From positions 30,462,140 through 30,526,139 of the forward strand of contig NC_058342.1 of assembly GCF_905475395.1 (NCBI RefSeq): 64,000 nt of DNA. Direction: 5' to 3'. The notes under the pieces are model-generated. The model saw only the letters and a list, made by a program, of their open reading frames with translations, had not been told where the DNA came from and made no database searches. A program made the translations under genes and the position numbers. Position 1 is the first letter of the stretch, and the number at the start of each line of letters is the position of its first letter. The DNA is from Chrysoperla carnea. Its lineage: Eukaryota > Arthropoda > Insecta > Neuroptera > Chrysopidae. Shown here one piece after another: positions 14,481 to 50,803 of the stretch.

Positions 14481-15765
14481 AAGAAATTTGTAAAAAAATT
14501 TTTTTGGTTCGGAATTTGACAAAACAGTCAGTTGATTTTGAATTTGATTTTTGAACTTTTTGGATCAAAATAACTTTATAACATAAGTTTTATCGAAGTT
14601 GAAAACGAAAAATTTTTCTCGATTTTATGCATTTTTTTTAAGGGGTACCCCTTGGAAAAAATCGAAAAATTTGAAAAACTTTTTTTGTTTCGGAATTTGA
14701 TAAAACTTAGTTTATAAAGTAATTTTGACCCAAAAAATTCAAAAATCGGGTTTATTTGGCCATTGAGATAATAGTTTCGGAAAAAAACCATATCTTGGAT
14801 CAATTTTGGACGTTATCTCGAAAACTATTGGTCCAAAGTTTGAATGAACCCGATTTTTGAATTTTTCGGGTCAAAATTACCTTATAACATGAGTTTTATC
14901 AAAATTGAAAACGAAAAATTTTTCTCGATTTTAAGCATTTTTTTTAAGGGGTACCCCTTGGAAAAAATCGAAAAATTTAAAAAAATTTTTTTGTTTCGGA
15001 ATTTGATAAAACTTAGTTTATAAAGTAATTTTGACCCAAAAAATTCAAAAATCGGGTTTATTTGGCCATTGAGATAATAGTTTCGGAAAAAAACCATATC
15101 TTGGATCAATTTTGGACGTTATCTCGAAAACTATTGGTCCAAAGTTTGAATGAACCCGATTTTTGAATTTTTCGGGTCAAAATTACCTTATAATAACATG
15201 AGTTTTATCAAAATTGAAAACGAAAAATTTTTCTCGATTTTAAGCATTTTTTTTAAGGGGTACCCCTTGGAAAAAATCGAAAGTTTTGAAAAAAATATTT
15301 TGTTTCGGAATTTGATAAAACTTAGTTTATAAAGTAATTTTGACCCAAAAAATTCAAAAATCGTGTTTATTTGGCCGTTGAGATAGCAGTTTCGGAAAAA
15401 AACCATATCTTGGATCAATTTTTGACGTTACCTCGAAAACTATTGATCCAAAGTTTGAATGAACCCGATTTTTGAATTTTTTGGGTCAAAATTACCTTAT
15501 AACATAAGTTTTATCGAAATTGAAAACGGAAAATTTTTCTCGATTTTAAGCATTTTTTTAAGGGGTACCCCTTAGAAAAAATCGAAAAATTTGAAATAAA
15601 TTTTTTGTTTCGGAATTTGATAAAACTTAGTTTATAAAGTAATTTTGACCTAAAAAATTCAAAAATCGGTTTTATTTAGCGATTGAGATAGTAGTTTTGG
15701 AAAAAAACATTATCTTGGATCGATTTTTGACGGTTATCTCGAAAATTACTTAGAGTTTAGCACGC
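14480..15765. repeat. Satellite array 306A: ~306-bp palindromic monomers, about 4 copies
   Basis: The palindrome AAGGGGTACCCCTT recurs at 14640, 14946, 15255 and 15560, spaced 306, 309 and 305 bp. Around each core the two arms pair imperfectly for roughly 80-90 bp: GGGTCAAAATTACCTTATAA on the left, TTATAAAGTAATTTTGACCC on the right. Each monomer is thus a large imperfect hairpin around a KpnI site. Short frames here (for example 14576-14803 and 14882-15109 on the minus strand) are by-products of the repeat and not genes. Confidence 0.95.
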
Positions 15766-16199
15766 TACATTTGAAAGAGATTTTTTGTGATAGAATTTGG
15801 AGACTGACTGGAAATTCCTTGGTTTTTTCTGCAACATAGTATTTATTACCGAAACAAATCGCTAAAAAAATTATTTAAAAAAATTAATAACAACAGCTGT
15901 GAAATAACCGAAGCTTCAAAGAAACTTTATTTAGTTTTTTCAATAATACCGTTGCTAAATAGCAATAATCATGAAAGTATCATTATTTGTATCATATATC
16001 TTGCATATTCTGTTTTCATATTAATAAAATAATGCTTATACAAGAACATAATTCTTGCTAATGCAATAGGAAGCAATTTAAGAATTGTTTTATGCAACGT
16101 TAATTGTTTTTACAGTCATAATAAATATATTTTATTTAATAATCGTGTAATAGATCTTATTAATGTATTTATCTATTGTATAATGGTTTGCAAAAATGT

Positions 16200-17612
16200 C
16201 CAACAAGATTTAATTTTGTTCTTTTACATGCAAATTTTATCCAATTTTGGTAAGCTAAGTACGTAATTCTAAAAAATTTGGGTAATACTTTTCAAATTTG
16301 TGATCAAAATTAACCTATTTCTATCAGGTTTCAAGACTGTGGAGCCCTGATCCCGGAATTAAGCACATGAGTGTGACGGATCAGAATCCAAAAAATTTAA
16401 TTTTGCTCTATCACATCTAAATTTTATCCAATTTTGATAAACCAAGTATGTAATTCTACTAAATTTGGGTCATATTTTTCAAATTTATGATCAAAATTAA
16501 CCTAGCTCTATTAGGTTTTAAGATTGTGGAGGTCTGGTCCTAGAATTAGGCACATATGTGATAGCTAGCGAAAAACTGACATCACAGCTGAAAAGAATGA
16601 CCCAAAATTAGTGGGTTTCAAAAAAAATTCCAATAAGATCGGATAAAAATTGCCTGTGTTATCAAAAAAATCGAATTTTTGAACTTTATGACGTCATCAG
16701 AATCCAAAAAATTTAATTTTGCTCTATCACATCTAAATTTTATCCAATTTTGATAAACCAAGTATGTAATTCTACTAAATTTGGGTCATATTTTTCAAAT
16801 TTATGATCAAAATTAACCTAGCTCTATTAGTTTTCAAGATTGTGGAGGTCTGGTCCTAGAATTAGGCACATGTGTGATAGCTAGCGAAAAACTGGCATAA
16901 CAGCTGAAAAGAATGACCCAAAATTAGTGGGTTTCAAAAAAAATTCCAATAAGATCGGATCAAATTTGCCCGTGTTATCAAAAAAATCAAATTTTTAACT
17001 TTATGACGTCATTAGAATCCAAAAAATTTAATTTTGCTCCATCACATCCAAATTTAATCCAATTTTGATAAACCAAGTATGTAATTCTACTAAATTTGGG
17101 TCATACTTTTCAAATTTGTGATCAAAATTAACCTAGCTCTAATAAGTTTCAAGAATGTACAGTCCTGGTCTCGGAATTAAGCACATAAGTGATAGCCAGC
17201 GAAAAACTACCATCACAGCTGAAAAGAATGACTCAAAATTAGTGGGTTTCAAAAAAACTTCCAATAAGAACGGATCAAATTTACCTGTGTTATCAAAAAA
17301 ATTGAATTTTTTAACTTGATGACGTCATTAAAATCCAAAAAACTTAATTTTCTCTATCACATGTAAATTTCATCCAATTTCGATAAACCAAGAATGTAAT
17401 CCTACTAAATTCATACTTTTCAAATTTTACTATCAAAATTAACCTAGCTCTAATACGTTTCAAGAATGTGCAGTCCTGGTCTCGGAATTAAGCACATAAG
17501 TGATAGCCAGCGAAAAACTGCCATCACAGCTTAAAAGAATGACCCCAAAATTAGTGGGTTTCAATAAAAATTCCAATAAGATCCGATCAAATTTGCCTGT
17601 GTTATCAAAATT
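16200..17612 (+). repeat. Satellite array 315: ~315-bp monomers, about 4.4 copies
   Basis: The anchor AATCCAAAAAATTTAATTTT recurs near 16385, 16701, 17016 and (as AATCCAAAAAACTTAATTTT) 17332, spaced 315-316 bp. A shortened first unit lies at 16200-16383. Each full monomer carries TGACGTCA (16689, 17004, 17320). It also carries an inverted pair, ACTAAATTTGGGTCAT against ATGACCCAAAATTAGT. The same unit makes up the interior of the hAT-type MITE at 31436-31959. Non-coding. Confidence 0.95.
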
Positions 17613-31427: not shown

Positions 31428-31435
31428 CACAGACA

Positions 31436-31959
31436 CAGGTCCGTAACTAGGACGTGACAAAGGAGGGACCATGACTCCACATTCTTGAAACCAATTAGTG
31501 CCACGTTAATTTTGATCATAAATTTGAAAAGTATGACCCAAATTTAGTAGAATTACACACTGTTTATGAAATCTGGATAAAATTTGAATGTGATAAAGCT
31601 AAATTAATTTTTTTGGATTCTGAATACGTCATTCAAAAAAATTTAATTATTTTGATAACACAAATTTGAACCGATTTAATTGAAATTTTTTTTGAAACCC
31701 ACTAATTTTGGGTCATTCTTTTCAGCTATGATGGTAATTTTTTGCTAGTTATCACTTATGTGCTATTTTCCGGGACCAGGACTCCACATTCTTGAAACCT
31801 ATTAGAGCTAAGTTAATTTTGATCATAATTTGAAAAGAATGACCCAAATTCAGTAGAATTACATACTTGGTCATCAAAATCGTTAGAGTCGATCTTGATA
31901 TATATAAGGCACAACCTAAATACTTGCCACCGGGGCTATGTACCCTCGTTACGGCCCTG
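31436..31959 (-). mobile_element. hAT-type MITE built of the 315-bp satellite unit
   Basis: Outer ends CAGGTCCGTAACTAGGAC (31436) and, read inward from 31959, CAGGGCCGTAACGAGGGT form terminal inverted repeats. An 8-bp CACAGACA flanks both sides (31428-31435 and 31960-31967), the TSD length of hAT. The interior is the 315-bp satellite unit in reverse, about 1.4 copies, with GACTCCACATTCTTGAAACC at 31473 and 31780. It is non-coding and would need a hAT transposase in trans. The left TSD lies in a CACA tract, which slightly weakens it. Confidence 0.85.
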
Positions 31960-32129
31960 CACAGACATACATACATTTTTTTATTTTTTTATTTGTTAAC
32001 ATAATTAAAATAACAAGAAAAATAATTTTATTCTTACGTCATGAATCAATAATTTTTGTACAAAAGAGCATCACAGTTCACATACATATGTGAAATTTGG
32101 TTACTATTTTTACCCGACTACGAAAAGGA

Positions 32130-35425: not shown

Positions 35426-35508
35426 GTCAGGTTGGCCGAGCGGTCTAAGGCGCCAGATTTAAGCTCTGGTTCCCAAACGGGAGCGTGGGTTCGAACCCCA
35501 CACCTGAC
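35426..35508 (+). tRNA. tRNA-Leu (anticodon UAA), copy 1
   Basis: 83 nt. Acceptor stem GTCAGGT/ACCTGAC pairs fully. D arm contains TGGCCGAGCGGTCTAAGG (A box). Anticodon stem CCAGA/TCTGG encloses TTTAAGC, anticodon TAA. Long class II variable arm TTCCCAAACGGGAGCG, T arm GTGGGTTCGAACCCCAC (B box). No intron. A T-run 8-16 nt downstream can end Pol III transcription. It would decode UUA. The downstream GAATTGGATAAATAGTCGTAGC spacer is shared with the other Leu copies. Confidence 0.97.
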
Positions 35509-35587
35509 AAAATCATTTTTTTTGCTTATCTCTTGTAGAATTGGATAAATAGTCGTAGCTGTATGAGAAAATCTCGAAATTTATATA

Positions 35588-35600
35588 CTCAGGTCCAAGT
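35588..35600 (+). pseudogene. Possible relic of a second tandem tRNA-Leu unit
   Basis: CTCAGGTCCAAG lies ~162 bp after the start of the tRNA at 35426, where the ~168-bp tandem period would place another GTCAGGTTGG. The conserved spacer leads right up to it. Only about 12 bp resemble a tRNA start, so this is tentative. Confidence 0.3.
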
Positions 35601-36580
35601 TTTTTTTTAAATGTTCAAGAAGATTCATATATCAAATTCTATATCTATAACTTTTTGCCGCTAGAAAGTTTGGCCATTACCATGGGTCAAAAAGGCCAAT
35701 TATTACAATCCATTTCTGAGATAATTTTAGAAAATTTTAAAACCTTGAAAATATTTAACAAAATGAATCAGAAACGTATACTCGGGGGTTTTCGGGTTCG
35801 CTTATCACTATTTCGAAGTCAGAATTTCGATATACTATAACCTCCTTGGGTAATTTGCCCCGTTGGCCATTACTGAAATATTCTAAGGACGTGTTTGAGG
35901 TCACTGATCATAATTCAGAATTTAGACTGAGGATATACTCCCCCTCCTGGGGTTGCAGTCCCCACATATGCCTTTGCGTTGGGATTGCAGTTTTGTAATG
36001 TACACGTCAGGCATTTTCGTCTAAAATAATTTGTCTGTGTCCTGGACAAGGCATCGACGCTATGTATACAGACTAAATCATTATGCAAATACATGAAGTT
36101 TGCAACTTCTTATTTATAATATCACCAAAATAAAGATGCATCTTTTATCACCATAATCAAAAAAAAGATCTTGTTTTAAATTGTTATGTGACTTAAAAAA
36201 AAAAATTAAAAAATTATCTAGAATTAACCTATCTTAATTATTTCTCAGTAAATAAAAAGAAATAATAAAAAAAAAAACTAGAATATTGAATATTTTTCTT
36301 AAATCACGAAATTATAAATCTTTATAATAAACGCACAGATGAAATGTCAAATAATAAACAAAAAATAAAAACCCTGAGACCAAAATGATCTTACACGCGA
36401 CTATTCGTGTAGAATTATTATGAAGTTGATCTGTGGTATTTTAAACGACAAATAACGAACATATTACAAAGTCGTCTTTGAAAAAAAAAAGTCTATGTTG
36501 TTCTTAATCAACAAAAAAAACCCTATATTTGATTCCACGATAGTTTATTATTATGTCTGCAGGATAATCTTTTGTTAGAT
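35601..36580. other. AT-rich stretch, nothing recognised
   Basis: TTGGCCATTAC occurs at about 35670 and 35863. A GC-richer patch at 35935-36060 has no identifiable content. The open frame at 35655-35840 shows no domain. Confidence 0.4.
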
Positions 36581-36582
36581 TT

Positions 36583-37147
36583 AAGGTGATTGTAAAGCTA
36601 CAGCATTGTAAAAAAATTTTGGTTTATTGCACGGTACATACATATGAATCAAATACATGCTTTGTACTCAAGTAATGTGATTTTTTTTAGCTTTCTAATA
36701 CCACGAAACTACAAAAATATATAATATATTGTGTGCAAGTGATGCTTATAAATTTGATTATATAGATATCTCTCTTCAATCATTAATAAACTAACTATAG
36801 TCGCCTCTGTTCATAAAAAAATTGGATCTTCGATGAACTCATAATTAAATTAAAATTTTGTTTTGATTTCATCGACAATCTTATATTTTGATGGTTTTAT
36901 TTTAAACTACAAGATTGTCTAAATATTTTAGATAGTTTTTTATCACACTCTCTAGATTTTTTGGTATAGAAATATCCAATTGAAAAGGATAATCTATATG
37001 ATTCATCATTTTTTTAGCCAACTTTGAACAATAAAAAAATTAATAAAAAGCTCGATGACCTAGGAATTTTATGTGATTTTTGTAAACTTTGTTAATTAAA
37101 AAATGTATTTATAAAGTTTTATTGAAATCTCTAGTATTATTCAATCC
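36583..37147. repeat. Dispersed repeat F, copy 2
   Basis: Direct-orientation match to 33610-34175, starting TTAAGGTGATTGTAAAGCTA and ending near ATTATTCAATCCTTG. Substitutions and small indels are scattered along it, so this is an old duplication or two separate insertions. Confidence 0.9.
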
Positions 37148-37149
37148 TT

Positions 37150-37685
37150 GCAGATCTTCTTAAAGATATGTTTTTTTAAAACAGTTTAAAACTTGTCCCC
37201 TAACTCACTTACAAAAGTTTACATTTAATAAAATAATAAAGAACCTAAAAGAGAGTCTTTAAGCCGTTTGTGTTCTGTAAAATCCATCCACACAGCCTTT
37301 TCAACATGTTTTTTTGAGACAAAAAATGTATAATTTAATATTATATCCAGGTCGATTATAATTAAGTATTAGAGGTCGGATCTTATGATTTTGATTTAGG
37401 ATTGAAGTTATAATTAATGTGCAAATCTGCGATAAATCGCTATTATCTTTTATAAATAATTATTGATTACTCTTGTAAACGTTATTATTTATATTATTAG
37501 TGATGCTTGGGTGTTTGCGGTTTATACATGTTTTTAATTCGGGTAAAAAAGTTTCTTTTCATAGTCAAAAGTTTAATATTTTTATACAAATTAATTTTTT
37601 TTAAAAGCTTATATTTAGTTTCACCTGTCCCGTTGTCTGTCTGTAATCAAATCTTGATAAGTCAAATTTAATCTACTTCCCGGTT
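37150..37685. other. AT-rich stretch, nothing recognised
   Basis: Background sequence leading into an element A copy. Confidence 0.4.
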
Positions 37686-37689
37686 TACC

Positions 37690-38158
37690 TTCTCGATTTT
37701 GTTTTTTGAGTTATCGTGATGACGAACGGACAGACGCAGACAGACGGAAAAATGGAAATGAATTAGTTCAGAAATTTTATGAACGCCTTCATCAAAATTT
37801 TGTTCGTAACATCAATAATGTCGCCCTATTAGCTCAGTTGGTTAAGGCGTAACCAATTCCGTCCGCGATATGCTTAGGGTAGTGGGTTCGATTAATTAAT
37901 AATTGTGATGGGCTGGTGTAGTGCAAGGTATATGCATGAAGGAGGTGCACTCAGCTTCTAAAATTGAGGAGCTGATAAATGAAATTATCAGCGGAAAGGT
38001 GGTAAAACACATTTATGGTATCACAATGGGCTCTATAGCCTAAGTGTGTCCTTCGTGGACAGCTGATATAACCTAACCTAACTATCAATAATATACGAAC
38101 TTTGAACTAAACTTAATATAGCTTGATCTGTATTTCATATAAACAAGGTATAAAAACA
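37690..38158 (+). mobile_element. Element A 3' half, split by a SINE
   Basis: Starts near TCTCGATTTTGTTTTTTGAG and has GAGTTATCGTGATGACG and the GACAGACGCAGACAG tract. It is interrupted at 37820 by SINE S1, then resumes with ACGAACTTTGAACTAAACTT and ends ACAAGGTATAAAAAC. Confidence 0.85.
37820..38083 (+). mobile_element. SINE S1 inserted in element A, 9-bp TSD
   Basis: Full 264-bp SINE: GTCGCCCTATTAGCTCAGTT head, a slightly shortened B-box region (GGGTTCGATT), body with TGCACTCAGCTTCTAAAATT and CCTTCGTGGACAGC, 3' end TAACCTAAC. ATCAATAAT is present at 37811-37819 and again at 38084-38092. Because that 9-mer belongs to element A's CATCAATA block, the target is known and the SINE is younger than this element A copy. 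Confidence 0.93.
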
Positions 38159-38159
38159 T

Positions 38160-38578
38160 AGTATTTAATGTTTGTAAAACTCAAAAATGACCATTTTCAA
38201 GGATGAATAAAATAGTAAAAGTTTGAAACTTATCTGTTTGTCTTTTTCCAATTTGTGAATAATCTTGGAACATTTATGTTCATTAAAAAATAATGTTCAA
38301 CTTATTAATTAATTTATTTATCAGAAATTACGTAATAATAGATAAATCATATTATAGTTTCTTTCTTTTAATTTTTTTTCTTTTATAGATTTGAAACAAA
38401 GAATGAATTGTTTTCAATCTTTTATAGACGATTACTGCACTTTCTGTTTTAGTATTCATTGATCTATTTCTTACGATAATATTAAAGTTTGTGACACACT
38501 AAATTTTGTTTTTCATTCTTATTCACGTTTCTGTTTAGACTCGGCAAAATAATTAATAAAAATTTCTCTTGGAAATCA
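38160..38578. other. AT-rich stretch upstream of tRNA genes
   Basis: No gene or shared repeat recognised. The region ends just before the tRNA-Leu pair. Confidence 0.4.
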
Positions 38579-38580
38579 GT

Positions 38581-38663
38581 GTCAGGTTTGCCGAGCGGTC
38601 TAAGGCGTCAGATTTAAGCTCAGGTTCCCAAACGGGAGCGTGGGTTCGAACCCCACATCTGAC
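38581..38663 (+). tRNA. tRNA-Leu (UAA), copy 2, weakened
   Basis: 83 nt in the same class II layout, anticodon TAA. Changes from the intact copies: D-arm TTTGCCGAG, anticodon stem TCAGA/TCAGG (an A-A mismatch and a T-G pair), and acceptor ATCTGAC (a G-T pair). It may be a decaying gene. The next unit follows 159 bp on. Confidence 0.8.
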
Positions 38664-38739
38664 TTTTATCAAATTTTTTATAGAATTGGATAAGTAGTCG
38701 TAGCTGTATGAGATAAAATTTCAAAATTTACTACATAGA

Positions 38740-38822
38740 GTCAGGTTGGCCGAGCGGTCTAAGGCGCCAGATTTAAGCTCTGGTTCCCAAACGGGAGCGT
38801 GGGTTCGAACCCCACACCTGAC
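38740..38822 (+). tRNA. tRNA-Leu (UAA), copy 3
   Basis: Sequence identical to the copy at 35426, with all stems paired and anticodon TAA. The spacer before it carries the conserved AGAATTGGATAAGTAGTCGT block. A T-rich run follows the 3' end. Confidence 0.97.
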
Positions 38823-38867
38823 AATATTTTCATCATCTATTTTACTTTTTCCTTTGTCCGATGAGAA

Positions 38868-39184
38868 TTTTTATGGGAACATTTTTTACATTTAAACTTT
38901 TGTTCTATCTCTAACGGTTTACAAGATGGGTCCTACGGATCCAAGACCCAATTGACCTATGATGCTCATTAACGAACTTGAAATCACTTTTTACGTTCTG
39001 AGTACGCTGTAAAATTTCAGCTCGATATCTTTTTTCGTTTTTGAGTTATCGAAATGGACTAATTAGGTGATTTTATGAACACTTATGACAAAATTTTTTT
39101 CCTAGCTTCATTATTTTTAAGCGTTACAAACTTTGGACTAAACTTAATATACTATGTATATTTCATATATACATGGTATAAAAA
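38868..39184 (+). mobile_element. Element A, 5' truncated
   Basis: Begins GGGAACATTTTTTACATTTA and contains CTAACGGTTTACAAGATGGG and AAATGGACTAATTAGGTGAT. It ends in the terminal hairpin (ATATACTATGTATAT ... ATATATACATGGTATA) and GGTATAAAAAC. It starts 46 bp after a tRNA-Leu gene. Confidence 0.85.
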
Positions 39185-39532
39185 CAGAGACAAAACATCT
39201 TAATTAAAAGTATTAAAAATTATGAAATAAATTCAATCAACCGATATTTAACATCATTTAGTATTGATAAATATTTCTTCAATACTGAGGAGTACTGACT
39301 GTGTGCTGAGTACTAAACATGAACTCTCATCGACTTTGTTACTATTACTAGTGTATCGTTAACTGAACTGTTAAGTTACAATTACTATTTATGTAACTAA
39401 TAATTTCTAAACTGTTTAATGTTTATAGAGTCTCTTTGATCCATATTTCATAAAGTATTTTATATACTCCACAAATACACAGCGTACAGCGATATAAAAT
39501 ACAGTCAAAATTCTTTGTTGTGACATTGCTAT

Positions 39533-39600
39533 CATTCGTTGTGTGCGTAATCATGGTAGTGACAATAAAATCGATGCCAGCGCTTCCAGTGAGCACAATC
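39533..39600 (+). mobile_element. Element C left-end fragment
   Basis: CATTCGTTGTGTGCGTAATC through GATGCCAGCGCTTCCAGTGA. The rest of element C is missing, replaced by the TCTCGCTTATAGAG-type sequence. Confidence 0.75.
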
Positions 39601-39960
39601 TCATTCTCGCTTATACAGCTTTCTCACTGACCCGAGTTTCTCGCTAATGCAGGTACATGGGTAGCGTTTCTCGCTTATAGAGCTACGCAGCAAGAACAAG
39701 TCACAGCAAGTACGAATGTAGTAAATTGTAGCTATAGTTCCTCCTAAATAATATAAATAAATAAAGCTCCACTGTCGCTTATAGAGGTAAAGATAAGTAG
39801 CAGTCTCACGTACGGAAGTCCATGAGGGAAAACTAACTCTCTCTTACAGAGGTTTCTGTTTCTCACTGATAGAAGTTTTAGGAGCTTAAAAGGACGGGTC
39901 CTGGCTATTATTCCTACTTATAGAGTTTTTTCACTTATCCAGTTCTCTCAGCTTTGGCTG
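39596..39960. repeat. Degenerate short-motif region (CTCGCTTATAGAG-like)
   Basis: Variants of a 13-20-bp word recur irregularly: TCTCGCTTATACAGC, TTTCTCGCTTATAGAGCTAC, TGTCGCTTATAGAGG, TCTCTCTTACAGAGG, TTCTCACTGATAGAAG, CTACTTATAGAG, TTCACTTATCCAG. Spacing is uneven (about 25-70 bp). No element ends or coding frame are visible. Confidence 0.6.
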
Positions 39961-40099
39961 TATTTTGAATTTAATAAAAATTTTGTAATTCAAATGTATC
40001 TGTTAAGCTAACAACTTAACACTATTAAAAATTAATTAGCCAGATCGATCGATTGCAAATCAATACAAAACAAAAAAAGTTAAATGATCAATAAATGAA

Positions 40100-40425
40100 C
40101 AATATACAGTTAATTCAATGTCAATCTTGGGCTCTAACAGACCTGATTAGTAATAAACTGGATATCTGCCAGTTTCGAAGCTCAGCGAAGTTTATTACTA
40201 AAAAGCTAAAGTGGGCCTGGTCAGGATACATTTTACGATCAAAACCGATCGATGGGCAAAGCTTATTATATTCTGGACACCACGAATGAACAGTAGAAAT
40301 TGTAGGAGACAATTTCAGAGATGGTCGAATGAATTTAGAAACTACAGTGGAAATACATGGTCGAGAATTGCTACTAACAAACAAGCGTGGAGAAACGCAT
40401 TAGACATTCTGGCCTTATTGTGATT
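40100..40425 (+). pseudogene. RTE-like non-LTR retrotransposon, C-terminal fragment
   Basis: Frame 1 up to ~40245 reads ...KLKWAWSGYILRSK. Frame 2 from ~40245 reads DRWAKLIIFWTPR, then RRQFQRWSNEFRNY and TWSRIATNKQAWRN, with a stop at 40421. This series (K.W.WAGH, RW...I.W.PR, RR..RW.DE, W...A.+..WR) is the usual C-terminal tail of RTE/BovB-type LINE polymerases. The catalytic reverse transcriptase domain is missing, so it is 5' truncated. The two frames show a frameshift. A (TTA)n run at 40497-40513 may be the element's simple-repeat tail. Confidence 0.75.
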
Positions 40426-40514
40426 ACATTCCCTACAATTATCCTTTTTTGTTTTTGTGAAAGGAAAGGCCGTTCCCCATTTATTGGAATCAAGGCTTAT
40501 TATTATTATTATTA

Positions 40515-41004
40515 CATCCTTCCACTGTCGTTAAAAACGATTTCGACTATACTTCAGAAGTATACAACACAGACGGAGTTTATTATACAATTTTTTTATG
40601 AATTTTTTTTTCATAATCGGTATATCATGCTACAAAAATAAAAACACAACAGTATAAAAAAAATCTTATTAATAAATAATTAAAAATATTTTGTTCAAAA
40701 AATCATAATAATAATAATAATAATCGTTTTTTTTTTATATATAAAAAGATTTTAACCTATTTTACTGTTTGATTAATTATTTATTTCATTAAATTTATTA
40801 TTTTATTGTAAATATTTAACAGTTAGAAATTATATATTAAACTTTGAACTTTTCGAAGTAAAATTATATATCATTCGACTTTATGTCACCTGAAATCATG
40901 CATATTTTAGAGTGGTGGTTGCGGTAAAAAAAAACTGATATCTATGCCATTCTTTGAATCTTTAAACACCAATTATCGAAATATCAGCTATCAAGACAGT
41001 TTTA
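40515..41004. other. AT-rich stretch with (TAA)n microsatellite
   Basis: AATAATAATAATAATAAT near 40706. Otherwise background sequence. Confidence 0.4.
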
Positions 41005-41005
41005 T

Positions 41006-41398
41006 ACCATGTATGTATGAAACAAATCAAGGTATACTAAGTTTAGTCCCAAGTTTGTAACGCTTAAAAATATTGATGCCACAAACAAAATTTTGGTGTA
41101 GGTGTTTATAAAATCACTTAATTAGTTCATTTTCGGTTGTCTGTCCGTCTGTCTGTCAAACACGATAACTCAAAAACGAAAGAAGATATCAAGCTGAAAT
41201 TTTTAAAGAGTGGTCAAGACGTAAAAAATGAGGTCGAGTTCGTAAATGAGCGACACAGATCAGCTGAGTTTTGGATCCATAAGACCCATCTTGTAAACCG
41301 TTAGAGATAGAAGAAAAGTTTAAATATAAAAAATGTTTCTTATAAAAAACTAAACAACTTTTGTTTGAAACATTTTTTTGTTAACATCACTATTTAGC
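41006..41398 (-). mobile_element. Element A 3' two-thirds
   Basis: On the minus strand it runs from TAAATAGTGATGTTAACAAA (41398) through CTCTAACGGTTTACAAGATG and GACAGACAGACGGACAG to the terminal hairpin at about 41006-41040. The 5' third is missing; unrelated sequence rich in CCGCC follows. Confidence 0.85.
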
Positions 41399-41499
41399 CT
41401 TGAGCCGCCGACTTTAGCCGCCGGAAGTTTTAAATTAAAGTATTCGTGTCTCCCACATAAGTAGGGATCCCACCCGACACATTGTGAAGTTGGTTTTGT

Positions 41500-41945
41500 G
41501 AGGGGGGGGGGGGTATTGCAGCGAGAAATTCCAATTTCGTCATATTTAATTTATTTCAACTACATCAAAATTATAAGTATGAAGTTTAATAAATATATTA
41601 GAAATTTACACATTTTGTCAAACATTTTGCAGCAAAACTATCATTCACTTTCTTTTGGCATTGATCTTTAAGTTTCTATCAACACTTAATCAAAAGGTAC
41701 AGATCTAAAAATTTTACACAAGCATGACTCGAACAAAACGAACAAACATGAACATTCTGGAGGAACGTGACTTAAATAGAACGAATATAAAAGTTTTACA
41801 ACTGACTTCTTATCGTGATACCAACAAAATAAGCTGAAAAGACCTATAAACACTAAAATCATGAACAAAATCAATTCTCACTACTCTAGTTGCTGAGGTC
41901 AAATCCATCGTGATGGGGATTCAGCAATCATAATGCAAATTTTTT
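41500..41945. mobile_element. Repeat G, copy 1
   Basis: Preceded by a run of 12 G (41502-41513). It shares long blocks with 43866-44225: ATTTCGTCATATTTAATTT, CGAACAAAACGAACAAACAT, CGTGATACCAACAAAAT, AAATCCATCGTGATGG and GATTCAGCAATCATAATGC. The frame at 41686-41874 lies inside the repeat and shows no domain. Confidence 0.85.
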
Positions 41946-41949
41946 TGCG

Positions 41950-42525
41950 GTGGCCCGGCAAAATTTTCAAAAACCCGACCACACGGCAAAACCTTCTAAG
42001 CTTGAGCAGTTGGCAATCCTATATGGCACAGAATTTGAATAAATAGTTTACAAGAGACTGTCAACATCGTACTATCTTAATAAATCCAAAGAATTTGCTA
42101 GTAGTCGTATAACCTTAACAACGACCAATTTTTATATATAACACTTTAAATGTAGATATGTGTAGGTACTCGATTTCAAAACATGTATAAAATCTTAAGC
42201 TAAAAACGTGTAGGCCGTTAAACTTGAGATATGCATTGATAAGACTGAAAAATAGCATAAACTCAATAAATAACAATCTTAATTGTTCTGCTCCTAAACT
42301 TGATTTTCTTTTAACATAGAAGTCCATTTTTATTTTAATGCTTCATAATATAAAAATAACACAAAATATATCTATTAAATGTTTTAAAATGTTCATAAAA
42401 GAACATAAAAAAGTCATAAAAAATTAATCAAAACTGATAAATTTTATATTGACTTAAATATAAAAAAAAATAACTTATATCTTTTACAATATAGTCTAGG
42501 AAGCAGTGGCACATTCATTGAAATA
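41950..42525. other. AT-rich stretch, nothing recognised
   Basis: No supported feature. The short frame at 42115-42327 has no recognisable domain. Confidence 0.4.
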
Positions 42526-42988
42526 ATAGGGTACTTTCGGTAGTGAAAAATAAATTATGAAATTTGAAAAAAGTTTAAATTTATGTAAAAATATACTTAA
42601 ATATTCTGATTTCGAGTCATAAAAACACATTCTTCTTTTAAAATATTAAAATTAAAAATCGTAATTTTTAAACTGTATATCACGTAACCTAAAACGCGGG
42701 CAAGCCTTGCTATGATGTCATATCGGTATGAGCCATAGACCATCAGTTAGTTTAGTGTAGACAGCTGGGTATAATATATCCATAGATAATAAGTATTTAT
42801 ATTTATTATAATCAGATGTCTATGAATATATCTGTCAAACTTATCTGTGTTATTTCGCATAATGATACCGGTATTACGTCACCAAATTGAATGCCCGTGT
42901 TTTTGACAGTTTAAAAAAGGTTTAAACTTTAATTTTAGTTTTTGGCAAGAAAGCGTGTGTATTTTTCCGAAATAAATTTTTGGTGGCT
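42526..42988. repeat. Dispersed repeat H, copy 1
   Basis: Begins AATAGGGTACTTTCGGTAG and ends GAAATAAATTTTTGGTGGC. It contains ATTCTGATTTCGAGTCATAA, CCATAGACCATCAGTTAGTT, AGTGTAGACAGCTGGG and GATACCGGTATTACGTCACC. The partner is at 62060-62505 in the same orientation. No coding or tRNA signal. Confidence 0.9.
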
Positions 42989-42989
42989 G

Positions 42990-43805
42990 TTTACATGTAT
43001 ACCAACAAATTTAGTAAATCTTATAAAAATGATCAATATATTCATTTCAAACTCTCTGTTAACTGGTAACAACAATCTTCATGAAGTTGCCTCAATCACA
43101 TATGGACTAGACATGATAGATATACGATCATTATAACCAAATACATATTCTATTTAAAGTAAACGCAAAAAACTTTTCTTTTAATTCATCGATTCGCTTT
43201 ATTAACACGATTATATATTCCAAGTAAGTACAATTTGATTTTCCATTAATAAATTGCATGACTTTAAACTAAAATCAATGTCTTTCATAGCAGTAATGAT
43301 TTTGTTTATTTAACTTCAGTGATTTTGTATCAATGAATTCATATTTTAAATTCAATACTTTTCTATTGTAAATACAAATATTTAGCTGTACTTGTTCCAA
43401 TCGTTAGGAAATTGTTTGAAAAATCTTCGTAATGAAGTTGTCATTATTTTAATTTTCTTTTTCAGTGAGGGTAACCCCAAAATTAGCGGATTCCTAAAAG
43501 TGGCGCCATTATGCCCTATACTTATTAAACGGTCTTATTTTACTCTAAAAATGTATTATGTTTTAAAAAATTTTATTCTTATTTTTTTATTAACATATTA
43601 AATAACAGAAAATATAAATCACAATATCTAATTTAGGTGTAACAGGAACTAATATAATAATTTACTCTATAAAAAAAATACGTCCTTATAATCTTGTACA
43701 CAAAAATATGAGGTACTAGCAGTTACTCACTCGCTTCTTTGTACAATTTCCATTTAATAAACAAAGACGATCGGATTACTGCCTTCACTTTGCTTGACCA
43801 CACTT
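42990..43805. other. AT-rich stretch, nothing recognised
   Basis: Background sequence. The frames at 42942-43136 and 43392-43601 show no domain. Confidence 0.4.
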
Positions 43806-43810
43806 ATCGG

Positions 43811-44286
43811 AGAGTTGCCACCTCCGTCAAGTCTCTCGCCTAGTATATTATGAAGGCGGTTGTAGGGGGGGGGGGGGAGGAAAGCCCGATTTCGTCATAT
43901 TTAATTTCAACAATTTGCACGAAAACTATCAGACAGTTTTTTTTTGCATTAATCCTTAGGTATCTATCAACATTTAATTACAAGGTACAGACATAAAAAT
44001 TTCACAAAAGCATGGCTCGAACAAAACGAACAAACATGAAAATTCTGCACGAGCGTGACTCAAATAGAAAGAATATAAAAGTTTTATAACTTCTCGTGAT
44101 ACCAACAAAATCAGCTGAAAAGTCCTATAAACACTTAAATCATGAACAAAATCAATTCTCGCTACTCTAATTGCTAAGGTCAAATCCATCGTGATGGCGA
44201 TTCAGCAATCATAATGCTAATTTTTGATTTTTCGATCCTGACTGCGCCCGTCACTTCCGGATGAGGTCCGAACAGGTGGCAACTCT
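43811..44286. mobile_element. Repeat G, copy 2, with 13-bp TIRs
   Basis: AGAGTTGCCACCT (43811-43823) and AGGTGGCAACTCT (44274-44286) are perfect inverted termini. A run of 13 G at 43865-43877 precedes the part shared with 41500-41945. I see no convincing target-site duplication. The TIR sequence resembles those of insect hAT-like MITEs, but the class is uncertain. Confidence 0.7.
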
Positions 44287-44504
44287 ACCATCTATCTCCC
44301 CGTTTGTTCACAATTTCATGGATCTGAATTTTTTGATATGGAATTCTTTTCTAAAATAAAAGTGCCTAATTTATTCCTTATTATCCCGAAATAATGTTTC
44401 ATAAGACACATCTATACACAATTTCAAGTACTGTATCCTGTAATTCGTTGTTTGTTAATCTCAAAGGAACCTAACATTTTTCCGGAATGAAAACATTTTC
44501 CATT

Positions 44505-44850
44505 AGCATTCACAGGACGTAAAAATTGAGGGTAAGTTCGTAAATAAGCAACATAGGTTAAGGATCCGTACTACCCACCTTGTAAACCGTTAGAGATAGA
44601 AAGTTTAAATGTTCCTCATAAAAAAATAAACAACTTTTGTTTGAAACATTTTTTTGTAAACATCACTGTTTATACACGAAGGCGCTAATTAGGTGCAAAT
44701 TTTCTAGTATATATTAATATGGGAATATCAGTTATGTGTGTGTGTGGATATTTAAAAGAGGAAATCTTTTTGTATTTACGTGACGTCAAAAAAACAAGCG
44801 ATTGTGTCATCAACACTGTCTACATGGTATTTCAACAATTACAGTAAGTT
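44505..44850 (-). mobile_element. Element A 5' two-thirds
   Basis: Minus-strand copy from the TTGTTGAAATACCATGTAGA block (44850) through GCGCCTTCGTGTATAAACAG and CTCTAACGGTTTACAAGGTG to TACCCTCAATTTTTACGTCC. The terminal hairpin half is missing. Confidence 0.8.
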
Positions 44851-45054
44851 AAAGTTATAGTTAGGAAACTCAATTTAGATCACCCTTAGAATTCATTGTC
44901 CATGTTTATATATTTAATCTGTAAAACAAATAAATAAAACAATTATTCTGGGTCATTTTATTAACCTACCTGTTAATTTGGATAATACAAATAAACTTTC
45001 AACCACAATTGACTACATAACAATATCAAATCATATTATTGCATACAATAGTTA

Positions 45055-45820
45055 GTCGCAGAAACGAAACATTAAAAACGATTCGAAGTCCGAAAATTTT
45101 AAGGAGTAAGTCGAATTTGAATGCGATTTTCCGTATTAAATTTGTTCGAGCGTCAGAAAATTTTGTGAACTAAATTTATTTATAAGGAAATTAAAAATAT
45201 GCAATTTGACTAAAAAATATGCATTTTATAATTGCATTTTTAATTAGCCGTAAATATACAAAATTTAAAATTCGTTTAATAGTGATGAAAATGATTTCAA
45301 ACTTGTTACACATGGATTTTTGGGTTCGCTGAACACGAATATCATGTCAGAACTGGTCTCCGAGGTACCTGGTGCCTAGGGTTAACGGTATCCCCGTTGT
45401 CTCTTGGAATCCAAACTCGTCACTTGGAGGTCAAGCTCGTCACTTGGGTTCGCTGAACTTATCGCGACAGAATTGGTCTTCGAGGTACCCGGGTATCCTC
45501 GGGTGTTCAGAGTTCCCCGAACATCAGGTATCCGGTGCCCGATTCAGTCGCGCTATTTGTATTAAGCAACCACAACCCCCCTCCCTCCCCCGAGGAACAA
45601 GTTTGAAATCATTTTCATCACTATTAACCGAATTGTGAATTAAATATTAACGCTCAATTTAAAATGCATATCAATAATGCAAATTGCATATTTTTATTTT
45701 GTATAAATCAATTTTGGTAACAAAATTTCCTGACGCTCTAACGAATCGAATGCAGAAAGCTGCATTAAAATCCGACTTACTGTTAAAATTTTTCGAACTT
45801 CATTGCTTCGTTTCTGCGAC
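45055..45820. mobile_element. Long-TIR fold-back element (766 bp)
   Basis: Starts GTCGCAGAAACGAAAC and ends CTTCGTTTCTGCGAC, bordered by TA on both sides. The inverted arms run ~250 bp with moderate divergence, to AGTGATGAAAATGATTTCAA on the left (45281) and TTGAAATCATTTTCATCACT on the right (45603). The middle (about 45310-45560) is GC-richer family D sequence with GAGGTACC and TCGCTGAAC repeats. The 88-codon frame at 45372-45638 is in that segment and shows no domain. No transposase. Confidence 0.85.
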
Positions 45821-45924
45821 TAAGTACACCATCAATAGACAAGTGTGTTACTGAATACTGAAGAGCGGACACAGCAGTTAGCGGCGGTACATTATATGAT
45901 TATAAATATGTTTTTGCCAATACA

Positions 45925-46480
45925 GTCAAAATCAGTTATATCGACGTCCCTTATAAAGAAATTGGCTATTTAGGCAAATTGTCGTGGTCCTGAATACTTG
46001 CCGTCGAAAACAACAATGGATCAAAGGATTTAGGCCAATAAACCTTTCAGGCAAAAACCGAGTTATACTTTGCAACCATGGGAAATGGGTTCTTAATGTT
46101 ATCGAAAACATAAATCCAAAAAGTTGTATACAAATTTGCCCTGGAACGATCATTTTTGAAAGATTTTTTGAAAAATTTAGAAAAAAAAGTCTTTTTTTTG
46201 GGAAAACTATTGATTTTTTCTGATAACACTAAACGGAAAAGTTGAAGATAATTCAAAAATACATATTTTGAGCTAAATGCGAAAAATGTCTAAGATTTTC
46301 ATTCTGCAATTACTTCCAGGCAAGTTAATAAGAAAGTTTGATTTTTTATATTTTGTAGACATTTAGTCATACTTCGACGTAAGTGGATTCATTTTGGTGT
46401 CTAACCCCTCAATTGTCAGCGGTGGTCCACCAATTTTCAAAAACAAACAGGTATAGACCCGTTAATGTAACACACTGTAC
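45925..46480 (+). mobile_element. Possible Tigger/pogo-like MITE
   Basis: The left part, CAGTCAAAATCAGTTATATC followed by GACGTCCCTTATAAAGAAAT and ATTTAGGCCAATAAACCTTT, resembles pogo/Tigger-type MITE ends in insects. The right end is not clear. The mutually overlapping short frames at 45932-46256 are not genes. Confidence 0.35.
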
Positions 46481-46484
46481 ATTA

Positions 46485-46980
46485 ATTTGAGGAAGTCATA
46501 GATCTCTCATGAATGAATGACTTGCGTTATTTTAAAGACTTGGCGTACACAAAAAAAAGTGTATTACTTTTTTTTTTTGGAGTGTCCGTCAGTCAATTTG
46601 TTTTTTAATTTTTATTTTTATTTTTATTTAGTGGTATTATAGCACCATGTATGAGATTGATAGCTCTTTAAAGAAAGAAGTTTTTAAAGCCTGCGGAGTT
46701 TCGCTTTATATATTACAACTAACACGCCTACACTAGTGGGTAATATTTCAAAATAATATATTATAACGTTTTTTAACCGAAGTCCAAAGTAACACAAAGG
46801 TAACAAATTCACATGGTTATTATTGTGTGCTTGTAACGGGTGATCCAAATTGAATTTCCTTACTTTAATTTAAAAACAAGCGAAAAAAAAACACAATTGA
46901 CTGACTTAATTATTAAAATAGCATATATTCACAGTTTTGATGGCACAATGATTGAAGAGAGATATCTATATTATCAAATT
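46485..46980. other. AT-rich stretch with element A and repeat F scraps
   Basis: ACACAATTGACTGACTTAAT near 46892 recalls the 5' block of element A. TGATTGAAGAGAGATATC near 46949 recalls repeat F in reverse. Each match is only 40-60 bp. Confidence 0.45.
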
Positions 46981-46984
46981 TATA

Positions 46985-47070
46985 AGCCAAAAAACAAAAC
47001 ACAGACAGACAGACACACACACATAGTAATCAAACTTATAACACCCCTTTTTTAAGTTCGGGGGTTAATT
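46985..47070 (-). repeat. Family B terminal fragment
   Basis: On the minus strand: AACCCCCGAACTTAAAAAAG, GGGTGTTATAAGTTTGATTA, then a CTGTCTGTCTGTC tract. Confidence 0.75.
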
Positions 47071-47688
47071 AAATAAGAGCATTAAAGTATATACAAACGT
47101 TAAAAAAATATTGACAATTGCAAAGTCAATCTACCATATTTATTTTGGGAGGGTTTTAATAGATTTGTAGGAAGGAAGGATCTTCTAATTTTAATAAACT
47201 ATATGCATACAAATATAGCAAAGATTACAATCGTAGTAATAAAAACAGGTCACCCATAAAGAAACAATGATTTTTTTGACATTATCATATTATATGTTTC
47301 AATTCATATGTAATGTATGTATATTATATACCATAGAATATAGATGATATATACCATGCACAGACCTATAAAAATGATAAATGGTGCAACCTTTTACGCG
47401 GCCGATTCAAATAAATTACTATCAAAATAAGGGTCACTAAAGAAGTAACCTTAAAAAAAAAACTGACTGACCAAGAATACATAATTTATAATATCACGTT
47501 TGGGAATATAATTAATAGATTATAATATATACATGTAGTGTTATGTTATAGTACATCTTTAGTGAATACTGTGAGTTCCAAAAGTTGAAACTCATAAAAA
47601 AAAAAAAAAAATTGGAAAAGCGAACTCGCAGGAAAAGTCTTCTGGCATGAAGGTTTTTGTATTCGATTTGGCTTAATTGCATGTGTAA
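47071..47688. other. AT-rich stretch, nothing recognised
   Basis: Background sequence with TATATA-rich tracts near 47300. Confidence 0.4.
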
Positions 47689-47691
47689 AAT

Positions 47692-48133
47692 TTTTATACC
47701 ATGTATATATGAAATATACAAAGTATATTAAGTTGAGTCCCAAGTTTGTAACGCTTAAAAATAATGATGCTAGGAAAAAAATTTTGTCATAACTGTTCAT
47801 AAAATCACCCAATTAAGCCTGTGGACACGATAACTCAAAAACGAAAAATGATATCGAGCTGAAATTTTTACAGGGTAATCAGGACGTAAAAAGTAAGGTC
47901 AAGTTCGTAAATGAGCATCATAGGTCAATTGGGTATTGGGTCCGTAGGATCCATCTTGTAAACCGTTAGAGATAGAACAAAAGTTTAAATGTAAAAAATG
48001 TTCCTTATCAAAAAATAAACAACTTTTGCTTGAAACATTTTTTCGTAAACATCACTGTTTACCCGTGAGGGCGCCAATTAGGCGGAAATTTTATAATATG
48101 TACTATACGTGATTATCAGTTATGTATGTGTAA
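47692..48133 (-). mobile_element. Element A, most of the length
   Basis: Minus strand from the ACTGATAATCACGTATAGTA block (48133) through GCGCCCTCACGGGTAAACAG and TCTAACGGTTTACAAGATGG to the terminal hairpin at 47697-47735. Frames at 47512-47812 overlap it but carry no domain. Confidence 0.88.
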
Positions 48134-48194
48134 AAAGCGGCTGAAGGTCAACCAAGCTCCAATAAACACTTCTTGGATGTTACTATCGGAACTT

Positions 48195-48410
48195 TCATTT
48201 AAATTTTACGGTTTAAAATCATACGGTTTTCCCTGGAAATCTCTCCAAACTGAACAGATTTTCTTCAAACATAGCCTACAATACTTTCGATGAAGTCACC
48301 TTTCAAACAAACAAAAAATTACATCAAAATTGATTGATCTATGCCTCAGATAGAAACACAGATACACATTTAACTTACAACTTTTTGTTGCGTCGGGGGT
48401 TAAAAATATG
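48195..48410 (-). repeat. Family B repeat, diverged
   Basis: On the minus strand: TTTTAACCCCCGACGCAACA, TGTGTATCTGTGTTTCTATC and TTGTTTGTTTGAAAGGTGAC. The layout matches other family B copies. Confidence 0.65.
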
Positions 48411-48927
48411 ATACGAGTTATCAAATGACGTTTTAGGCCTGAATTCCAAGAATTCTTATCCCAAATTCCCAATTTCGTTTCAACTAACTTTTGTAACAGA
48501 CAGTACACATATCTTACAGGATGAGTCAGGTAATATGTATAATTATGTATAAATAAATTAAGTTATTAAAACATTAGTGATACATGTTTTTTTATAATCA
48601 GATATAGGTGTTATATCGTATTCAAACTTTTTTTTATAAATTCTCATTCAGATATATTGTTTAAGCTAGGTTATTTTGAAACGTGCTGAGTAGTGGGGTA
48701 ATTTTTCAAATAAATTTTAATTTGAAACTTCATTCTTCTTAAAAGTTTTGGTCAATAACCATTCTTTTCTACCTTTTGCTTATATAATAGTAATTATATA
48801 ATACTAGCGGTGTAACTACCAGTTTTCCTATGTTCGTTGGAACACGGACATCGCAGTTCTAAAGGGTAGGTAAAGAAGAATTTTTCCTGAAGTATTTTCT
48901 TTACGACACTACAAGAAGATACCAATG

Positions 48928-49446
48928 AACATGTGAAAACAAACAATTGACTGAGTTAATTGTTGAAATACCATGTACAAAGTTGATTACTCTGTCATAT
49001 TACACATACATACATGTCACACACATATAACTGATATACCCATATAATACATACTATACAATTTGCGCTCTCACGGGTAATTTTCAAGCAAAAGTTGTTT
49101 ATTTTTTTAAAAGGAACATTTTTACAACTTTAGTTTTATCTCTAAAAGTTTTCAAGATGGGTCCTACGGAGCCAAGACCCAATTAAGACCCTACGTTGCT
49201 CATTTACGAACTTGACCTCACTTTTTACGTCCTCAGCACGCTATAAAAATTTCAGCTTGATATCTCTTTTCGTTTTTGAGTAATCGTGATGACAGACAGA
49301 CGACAGACAACCGGAAATGGACTAATTAGGTGATTTTATGAACACCTATACCAAAATGTTGTTCATAGCATCAATATTTTTAAACGTTACAAACTTGGGA
49401 CTTAACTTAGTATACCTTGGTATATTTCATATACATGGTATAAAAA
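48928..49446 (+). mobile_element. Element A, nearly full length
   Basis: Begins AACATGTGAAAACAAACAAT. It contains ATAATACATACTATACAATT (the uninterrupted Helitron target), GGGTCCTACGGAGCCAAGAC and GACAGACAGACGACAGACAA. It ends in a hairpin (TATACCTTGGTATAT ... ATATACATGGTATA) and GGTATAAAAAT. Confidence 0.9.
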
Positions 49447-49449
49447 TTT

Positions 49450-50610
49450 TCAATATAATATGAAATTCTGAACCAAATAGGGTAAAATTCATGTGAATTG
49501 TCGAATAATTATAATTTTTAATTAGTCACACTTTTGAAAGAATTCATTTTTCCAGCATTGCAACTAATTTTCATAAATAATGAGCATTGTTTAAAACTAA
49601 TCAAAAAAAAAAAATATATAGTCCTCGAAAAAACGTCCTTAAGCAAATGTAGTACACCCCTTGTCATGAGTGACACACATTCACCAATTATAACCAAGTT
49701 TGGCCCCGTTCCGCACACAACACTAATTTATTTTTTTCATCTTTTTCTTTTTTGTTAATAACAATTATTTAGTATGAATATTTAAAAAAAAAAAAAGAAG
49801 TGGGGAGTTGGTTGAACACGAAGCAAACAATGGTTTGGGGGTTGTCTCCATATGGAAATAATTTTCGTATCAGCTTCTTTGCCTGAGTGGCTTCCCCTAT
49901 AAAAAATGTGTGTACCAATTATACCAAGTCATGGCCGCTACAGTTTTATGAGTGACTTTTGAAAATAAAAACCCTTCTTTACAATAAAATCCGAGGTGAT
50001 TTTTTTTTTTAGAAGGGGTTGTCGTCAATGCATCGTGTGTAATACATAGATGACTCCTTGTTACTTACAACGGGGATATATATATTATTTGTATTAATAT
50101 GTATCCCCCTTCTACCACCCGGGTGTGTAAGTTCTTTTGTTACATACAAACATGTAAATTGTACTTGAATCAATTCTCAAAAATTGTTACGGCATCATTA
50201 CAAAAAAAAAAATTATAAGTTGTATTATTTATATAAATTAGTAGAAATTTTAGAATTTTTATGACTAGTCAACACAAATTTTGTCCCAAAAGCATGATTT
50301 TACTTTTTGAAAGGTTTTTGGCGTGGTGAATACGAATCTGAGCGAAAAATTGCTTCAGCACGTCGAGAAATGATTCCTTTAATATGAAAAAAAATTATTT
50401 CACTCCTAAATTCAAAGTCATGTTTCTACAGTGAATAATTCCTTCTCACAAAAAATGTATGCCATCAGAAATACCATTCATTCTCCTTCAAAAGCTTTTC
50501 CAAAATCTTTTTGCAGGATATAGAATAAATAATAATACAACGTGTATTTTAAGTATAATAAAAATAAATGATTTTTCGAAGAGCAAAAGCTATATCGGAA
50601 AGAAAGGAGT
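49450..50610. other. AT-rich stretch, no gene seen
   Basis: About 1.2 kb with overlapping opposed frames at 49518-49758. TACACCCCTTGTCATGAGTG and similar mixed sequence is not assignable. No repeat shared with the rest of the window noticed. Confidence 0.4.
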
Positions 50611-50613
50611 AAC

Positions 50614-50646
50614 GCCAACCTGACTGGTAAGAACAGTCAGGTTGGC
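50614..50646. repeat. Inverted repeat at the 5' end of a tRNA-Leu gene
   Basis: GCCAACCTGAC (50614-50624) is the exact reverse complement of GTCAGGTTGGC (50636-50646), the first 11 nt of the tRNA that starts at 50636. The spacer is 11 nt. Looks like an inverted scrap of another tRNA copy. Confidence 0.85.
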
Positions 50647-50718
50647 CGAGCGGTCTAAGGCGCCAGATTTAAGCTCTGGTTCCCAAACGGGAGCGTGGGT
50701 TCGAACCCCACACCTGAC
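50636..50718 (+). tRNA. tRNA-Leu (UAA), copy 4
   Basis: Identical in sequence to the intact copies at 35426 and 38740. First of three units in tandem with a 168-bp period. An 11-bp inverted repeat of its own 5' end lies just upstream. Confidence 0.97.
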
Positions 50719-50803
50719 AAAAGCATTTTCTTTCTATTTATTTATAGAATTTGATAAGTAGTCGCAGCTGTATGGGATAAAATTTCAAAACTTATTAAAC
50801 ACA

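Follow-up and report, generated by a model that had tools for sequence, protein, structure and literature searches.

Introduction

MITE-borne satellites are already known and four described systems, as they are presented in the accessible text of the reports cited here, come close to the one investigated in this study. In Xenopus tropicalis, the MITE miDNA4 (Scalvenzi and Pollet 2014) contains one or several internal satellite monomers, of which longer arrays later occur free of the element ends (PMC12628747, PMC9659126), and its authors have proposed the capture of a pre-existing repeat and a subsequent loss of the ends (PMC12628747). In Drosophila virilis, Tetris/TIR-220 (Dias et al. 2014) harbors internal tandem repeats of about 220 bp in variable number, which also form longer satellite-like arrays, and no autonomous partner of the element was found (PMC4079207). 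The pearl-family MITEs of bivalves (CvA, DTC84 and BIV160) are modular, with up to six internal repeats that are related to satellite monomers, and a network of satellites and TEs has been proposed by their authors (PMC5139131). Finally, in case of Xstir/Xmix of Xenopus laevis (Hikosaka and Kawahara 2004), a MITE, a tandem array and a composite coexist in one genome (PMC12628747, PMC9659126).

The system described here was encountered in a stretch of 64,000 nucleotides from Chrysoperla carnea, which we refer to as the window. With miDNA4 it has in common a MITE with internal monomers, longer arrays without ends and a proposed scheme of capture and loss of the ends, whereas miDNA4 is a Tc1/mariner element and the present family combines hAT-like TIRs with an 8-bp TSD and a unit that is also found in a second TIR element. 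Tetris is likewise a non-autonomous TIR element with variable internal repeats, arrays outside of the element and no autonomous partner found, but its repeats form part of foldback TIRs, with a stretch of 37 bp being common to them and the terminal domain (PMC4079207), in contrast to the unit investigated here, which resides between short TIRs and has only a 13-bp word in common with the right arm of a long copy of the MITE. The pearl elements, as far as described in the accessible text, belong to another family, whereas here a common junction in 29 places points to a single uptake of the unit by the second carrier. Xstir/Xmix concerns a different MITE and a different repeat, and its likeness lies in the coexistence of MITE, array and composite. 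How satellites disperse through chromosome arms is an open question that is usually argued from single carriers, and it is the two-carrier history that is the informative part of the present case.

Results

The MITE family of the window element

The element that is at the center of this study occupies positions 31436-31959 of the window, which has a G+C content of 30%. It is 524 bp long, with an exact duplication of CACAGACA on either side and TIRs (CAGGTCCGTAAC and CAGGGCCGTAAC) that are identical at 11 of 12 positions (Table 1). A preliminary description had recognized it as hAT-type MITE with inverted CAGG ends and an 8-bp TSD, and had named as its potential weakness a coincidental pairing of TIR and TSD in the CACA tract. 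In such a case, a CACA-rich flank would mimic the duplication and the unit would lie between chance inverted CAGG motifs. The left flank of the element is indeed CA-rich, but CACAGACA occurs only five times in the window, with two of these occurrences being the TSDs. The family as a whole leaves practically no room for coincidence: the exact 16-mer CAGGKCCGTAACNAGG has 241 matches (119 + 122) in the genome of 559,487,470 bp compared to 0 in a backwards control, and of the 32 candidate TIR pairs among the loci retrieved, 11 (one of them the window copy) are flanked by an 8-bp TSD that has no more than one mismatch, whereas 2,000 shuffles of the right flanks yield 0.6 such pairs on average and never more than 4. 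In addition, the arms of the MITE are conserved. The evidence from TIRs, TSDs and arms already refutes a chance arrangement, and the element is a real MITE of the described architecture.

When allowing for up to two mismatches in 24 bases, the genome contains 274 right and 252 left MITE ends, with both controls at 0. These counts are lower bounds and define a family of at least 250-270 copies. The 11 copies with a TSD range from 524 to 1542 bp and CAGGKCCGTAAC is present at both ends of the MITE. The elements are short, numerous and of defined structure, and they appear non-coding as judged from the window copy, in which coding was examined and which contains no ORF of 120 or more amino acids. 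Short TIRs starting with CAGG or CAGGG are a hallmark of hAT elements, whose target consensus nTnnnnAn is not common to all hAT lineages. Upon comparison by eye, the 11 TSDs do not follow this consensus, which, in light of its restricted distribution, was not used to exclude a hAT affiliation. We have thus kept the designation hAT-like as a putative assignment, given the 8-bp TSD and the CAGG-type TIR but no match to nTnnnnAn.

Among the 150 matches to the hAT dimerisation domain that were listed of 1,204 first-look candidates in the genome, none was identified as autonomous partner sharing the TIRs of the MITE, and the matches listed, including these 150, contain no transposase linked to the ends of either the MITE or the second carrier, termed B and described below. 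A comparison by eye of the 150 listed domains with 100 of the 241 TIR places found one domain within a few kb of a MITE TIR, outside of it. A hAT domain located about 0.9 kb outside the TIR at C1:61830877 was considered as autonomous partner, and its proximity was judged to be due to chance. The region of this domain (C1:61829835-61830892) has an open frame of 98 codons and is listed in several copies.

The interior of the window element (31465-31880, 416 bp) had been described as about 1.4 copies of a 315-bp unit. The presence of the unit is confirmed, whereas its extent is corrected to 1.32 copies and its length to 316 bp, the latter in a consensus obtained from 98 full units. This interior is typical of the family. 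We have sampled the first 30 exact-word places in map order and 20 loci retrieved via the right end, which, after omission of four duplicates (L010, L016, L039 and L045), comprise 46 distinct TIR loci. Within 1.5 kb inward, 42 of them contain 0.4-4.4 copies of the unit. The other four (L012, L013, L047 and L052) are free of it, with L013 displaying both TIRs and a perfect TSD. In the long copies L058 (1,128 bp), L019 and L018, a left arm of about 137 bp is followed by units running from phase ~166 to phase 113 and by a right arm of about 418 bp. Of the 42 unit-carrying TIR loci, 19 have the junction between the unit and the right arm at phase 111-113, and a word spanning this junction matches 221 genomic positions at up to two mismatches (control 0); unit and right arm meet at one fixed point in more than 200 places.

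Elements with different numbers of internal units, which the preliminary description had recommended to look for, do exist, with TIR loci containing less than one, about two, three and four, and elements with two TIRs containing about seven and about nine. Of the latter, C1:69234194-69237436 carries about nine units between both TIRs, with flanking octamers that agree at six of eight positions and a middle known from match places only, and L087 carries 6.8 units, with an agreement at five of eight positions. Tandem arrays thus do exist inside MITE elements.

Besides the 13-bp word TTTATCAAAATTG, the arms of L058 bear no resemblance to the unit beyond that of shuffled sequences. The matches of an arm model to units had suggested the right arm to be a decayed unit, which was rejected based on the scores of the right arm of L058 against the unit (26 and 28 on the two strands, where shuffled sequences reach up to 29). 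Unit sequence had probably found its way into the arm model, which is why a weak right-arm match in L079 was not counted as arm. In L058, the portion of the right arm that is missing from the window copy is bordered on either side by a copy of TTTATCAAAATTG, of which one lies at the edge of the array and the other within the arm. It is thus likely that the right arm of the window copy was shortened by a deletion between short direct repeats; an insertion in L058 would look alike. We regard the window element as an old, shortened and diverged copy of a non-autonomous hAT-like MITE family.

Table 1. Features of the window element and of the tandem array of the 316-bp unit in the same window.
Feature	Position	Strand	Basis or remark
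Final unit of the array with internal deletion, running from phase 298 to phase 155	16199-16373	-	~129 bp missing at joint 16373/16374
Main block of 316-bp tandem array	16374-17610	-	no TIR or arm in flanks
Left 8-bp TSD CACAGACA	31428-31435	.	direct reading; identical to 31960-31967
Left TIR CAGGTCCGTAAC	31436-31447	+	direct reading, end check
Left-arm remnant, 29 bp	31436-31464	+	~137 bp in long copies
Interior, 1.32 copies of the 316-bp unit, phase 1 to 111	31465-31880	+	
Right-arm remnant, 79 bp	31881-31959	+	418 bp in L058
Right TIR CAGGGCCGTAAC	31948-31959	-	direct reading, end check
Right 8-bp TSD CACAGACA	31960-31967	.	direct reading

Arrays with and without MITE ends

The best-scoring matches to the window element were grouped by hand into 39 arrays, 37 of which were read either whole or by their flanks (leaving out C2:6903946 and C1:103065752). 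With the window array and the window element, these constitute a sample of 39 items. Both TIRs are found in three of them, namely the window element, C1:69234194-69237436 and L087. Arrays that still carry a TIR had been recommended as targets of a search, and 13 items retain one arm or part of one: the left arm only in L064, L071, L072, L078 and, without its TIR, L074, and the right arm only in L060, L061, L065, L077, C3:35.2, C3:21.26 and C5:13.1 Mb and, without its TIR, L085. The other 23 items, the window array among them, show no recognizable MITE arm or TIR in their flanks, and may have carriers beyond the ~200-1,500 bp examined. The right flank of L083 is outside its locus. In total, the sample contains seven left and nine right matches to MITE ends in the right orientation, compared to one match with up to two mismatches (0 left, 1 right) in a wrong-orientation control.

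Array units share 95.6% identity with units of their own array and 91.0% with those of other arrays, values that are biased towards low divergence since the 37 arrays were selected as those matching the window element best. Between TIR loci and carrier-less arrays, the unit consensus differs at one of 316 positions, a site that is about evenly split in both classes. At position 72, A and G are found with frequencies of 0.55 and 0.43 in TIR loci, and A with a frequency of 0.93 in the arrays of the 39-item sample. We do not claim that array units are younger than MITE units (95% vs 92% identity to the consensus), since similarity to the window element had guided the choice of the arrays, and arrays also supplied the consensus. 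In carrier-less arrays, the phases of the ends are scattered and most lengths correspond to non-integer numbers of units, which do not define a single insertion mechanism and which argue against a simple insertion of circles, where whole unit numbers would be predicted; lengths close to whole units are found in L063, L069 and L079.

Genome-wide, a unit word of 24 bases has 5,836 matches at up to two mismatches (control 0), with a recovery of 84-95% of the sampled units depending on the class. By number, most units are thus probably located outside MITE ends (5,836 compared to 274 and 252), a finding which the preliminary description had considered as evidence against its proposal but which does not by itself exclude an origin in the MITE. 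For a view that is independent of the window element, we have used the first 100 exact unit words listed, which fall into 27 loci at 1.7-13.65 Mb of C1. This sample favors homogeneous arrays and covers one end of a chromosome where exact MITE TIRs are rare. When compared to lists of exact MITE TIRs, MITE right ends with up to one mismatch, exact B TIRs and B junctions, a B end is present in nine of these loci, a MITE end in one and neither of them in 17. The nine loci with a B end account for 66 of the 100 exact units and include the longest arrays of the listed stretch, one of which spans the length of about 25 units, is located 86 bp from a B TIR and lacks the common junction. Classical centromeric or heterochromatic satellites form arrays of kilobases to megabases; among the first 100 of the 5,836 unit matches listed, arrays are dispersed and span up to ~25 units.

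The window array had been placed at 16200-17612 and was suggested to have been seeded by the nearby MITE copy. The array itself stands, with its coordinates refined to 16199-17610 (minus strand, ~4.5 units), whereas the relationship to the window element does not. The unit of the latter is at most 87.9% identical to any other unit, with its nearest relatives in the arrays L063 and L059, and the window array, in its three full units, is most similar to L059 (91.9-94.9%), an array of the same chromosome at a distance of about 100 kb. Sequence identity thus excludes that the window array was seeded by the window element; the flanks of this array contain no MITE TIR or arm, no B end and no pair of inverted repeats above control. 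The presence of a unit-carrying MITE and an array in one 64-kb window is also not as unusual as had been assumed: about 3.7 unit words per locus (100 in 27) would translate into some 1,600 loci genome-wide, or roughly one per ~350 kb.

A second carrier

Element B was found in the flanks of three larger arrays on C1, which were chosen regardless of their likeness to the window element. All three have a common left flank that is 94-95% identical over at least 340 bp and joined to the unit at phase 17-18. Their right sides differ, with one ending at phase 157 and one at phase 188. The left end of B is sharp, as 39 of 39 other scored places start at or beyond query position 112, 30 of them at 118-123, and it adjoins the TIR word TAGTGTAGTAAATAAGCCGG, of which the genome contains 179 copies at up to two mismatches, 22 of them exact (control 0). 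The junction between the arm of B and the unit is found at 29 sites on C1-C4 (control 0). Of these, 23 are located within 700 bp of a B TIR with up to one mismatch and, conversely, 18 of the 22 exact B TIRs are within 700 bp of a B junction.

Native copies of B, as defined by their match places, consist of arms in both orientations separated by about 20 bp (e.g. C6:17002343-17003664); they lack the unit and their gap offers no room for it. The distribution of the junction points to an uptake of the unit by B at a single junction that is now present at 29 sites. In the array at C1:11.56 Mb, an inverted TAGTGTAGTAAATAAGCCGG with two mismatches directly follows the opposite end (L104:433-452, detected with a pattern of two alternative bases), delimiting an element of ~5.4 kb in which B-type TIRs enclose about 15 units; its middle is known from unit words only. 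Such a right B TIR is found in only one of the three B-linked arrays read. The B-linked units read, from the right sides of two partial arrays, show 25 differences from the consensus and a G at position 72, and for this reason the B arrays look like a separate subfamily. B shows no relation to the 316-bp unit above shuffled sequences and, judged from its different TIRs and arms, appears to be unrelated to the hAT-like MITE. The exact MITE TIRs listed for C1 are, with four exceptions, located at 51-127 Mb and the nine B-carried arrays at 7.9-13.7 Mb; as judged from this chromosome, MITE and B may accumulate in different regions.

Symmetry of the unit and candidate further carriers

The unit is dyad-symmetric, with 261 bases of its consensus aligning with their own reverse complement (score 78 compared to a shuffled maximum of 30) and a perfect ATGACGTCAT at one of the dyad centers. 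As single-stranded DNA, one unit is predicted to fold at -37.9 kcal/mol, compared to -25.0 +/- 4.1 in shuffled sequences (z -3.2), two of 100 of which fold as well. Such a predicted fold could facilitate slippage, the stalling of replication forks or repair.

Unrelated inverted repeats flank the arrays of L063 (C2:24.68 Mb, 6.0 units; 33 bp, at distances to the array of 0 and 142 bp) and L069 (C3:5.22 Mb, 2.9 units; ~60 bp, at 63 and 93 bp). In a test of 39 flank pairs, which leaves out the two-TIR array at C1:69.2 Mb and includes the B-linked array at C1:11.56 Mb, one of 1,482 mismatched pairs scored as high as these two. We regard them as leads to a possible third and fourth carrier. Wide inverted repeats around L062 and L075 were not used as evidence for carriers, since the flanks of the window element show such repeats too.

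Discussion

Our study has shown that two TIR elements carry one tandem unit at fixed junctions and in variable number. With 0.4 to ~9 units inside TIR elements or loci and longer arrays outside, the unit is a TE-borne satellite that is common to both elements and that also forms arrays without visible carrier. We consider it quite probable that the window element is an old and short hAT-like MITE, and that the unit is carried by its family and by B and forms arrays that outlive their carriers. Along these lines, cut-and-paste moves of the MITE and of B would spread the unit with the help of a transposase supplied from elsewhere, unequal exchange or replication slippage, possibly aided by the dyad symmetry, would alter the copy number, and either a deletion of the ends or an insertion or breakaway by repair would leave carrier-less arrays such as 16199-17610. 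The arrays with one arm fit a loss of carrier ends. Counting against this account are the 23 of 39 items without MITE end and the 17 of 27 loci on C1 with neither MITE nor B end.

The unit may have been born in the MITE or captured by it as an older satellite; in an outgroup-free comparison of the direction of descent, the consensus sequences of MITE loci and arrays are nearly identical. If born in the MITE, which extends the suggestion of the preliminary description from the window copy to the family, the unit would have been duplicated inside the element, and all arrays, including the B-borne and carrier-less ones, would descend from MITEs stripped of their ends. The prevalence of the unit in 42 of 46 TIR loci and the graded series of two-armed, one-armed and armless arrays speak for such a history, as does position 72, where the A/G mixture of the MITE compared to a prevailing A in arrays and G in the few B units looks as if both had been drawn from the MITE. 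However, apart from TTTATCAAAATTG, the arms of L058 are unlike the unit and thus reveal no ancestor preceding its duplication, the four unit-free TIR loci, in particular L013, are equally compatible with a unit-free ancestor and a later capture, and the window copy itself was not the donor, which makes a birth in the MITE possible but somewhat doubtful. The alternative, where the hAT-like MITE and B each took up a pre-existing satellite (at least two uptakes in total) and where the MITE is a carrier rather than the source, is also possible, although we would rate it as somewhat less likely than not. It finds support in B, with its one junction in 29 places and native copies that have no room for the unit, in the single main right junction of the MITE (221 matches), in the large excess of units over MITE ends and in the other tandem family of the window, which is of like length and dyad symmetry and for which no flanking inverted repeat was found. 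The unit of B could, on the other hand, derive from a copy of the MITE, as viewed in the same outgroup-free comparison.

A further generalization, which we think is rather unlikely, would describe the unit as a transferable module that moves into TIR transposons of unrelated kinds (the MITE and B, possibly also the inverted-repeat elements around L063 and L069), expands inside each, spreads with them and is shed as carrier-less arrays. If true, a satellite would reach genome-wide dispersal by switching its vehicles. Among the titles and abstract openings retrieved, mostly from outside the subscription literature, we found no announcement of one satellite unit in two unrelated TIR elements and, in the accessible text of PMC12368964, nothing of relevance. 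Since a single genome contains the unit in the interior of a MITE, in B and in carrier-less arrays, the order of events is testable by a comparison of species.

Additional repeats in the window

The window contains two further tandem arrays with units of 306 bp (14546-15745 and 62968-64000), which are homologous to each other on both strands and dyad-symmetric (scores of 207 and 385 compared to a shuffled maximum of 33). The first of them is located about 450 bp from the 316-bp array, and no relation between the 306-bp and the 316-bp units was detectable. A 175-bp tandem unit was also tested for a relation, and its score of 28 on one strand compared to a shuffled maximum of 26 was considered too little. 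Eight tRNA matches in one orientation are found at 35426-52918, several of them within tandem units of 168-169 bp. Finally, two identical open frames of 124 codons (914-1288 and 4829-5203) are located 3,915 bp apart, with an identical 12-bp tandem repeat at equal offset from both (1609 and 5524), and the two frames point to a duplicated stretch.
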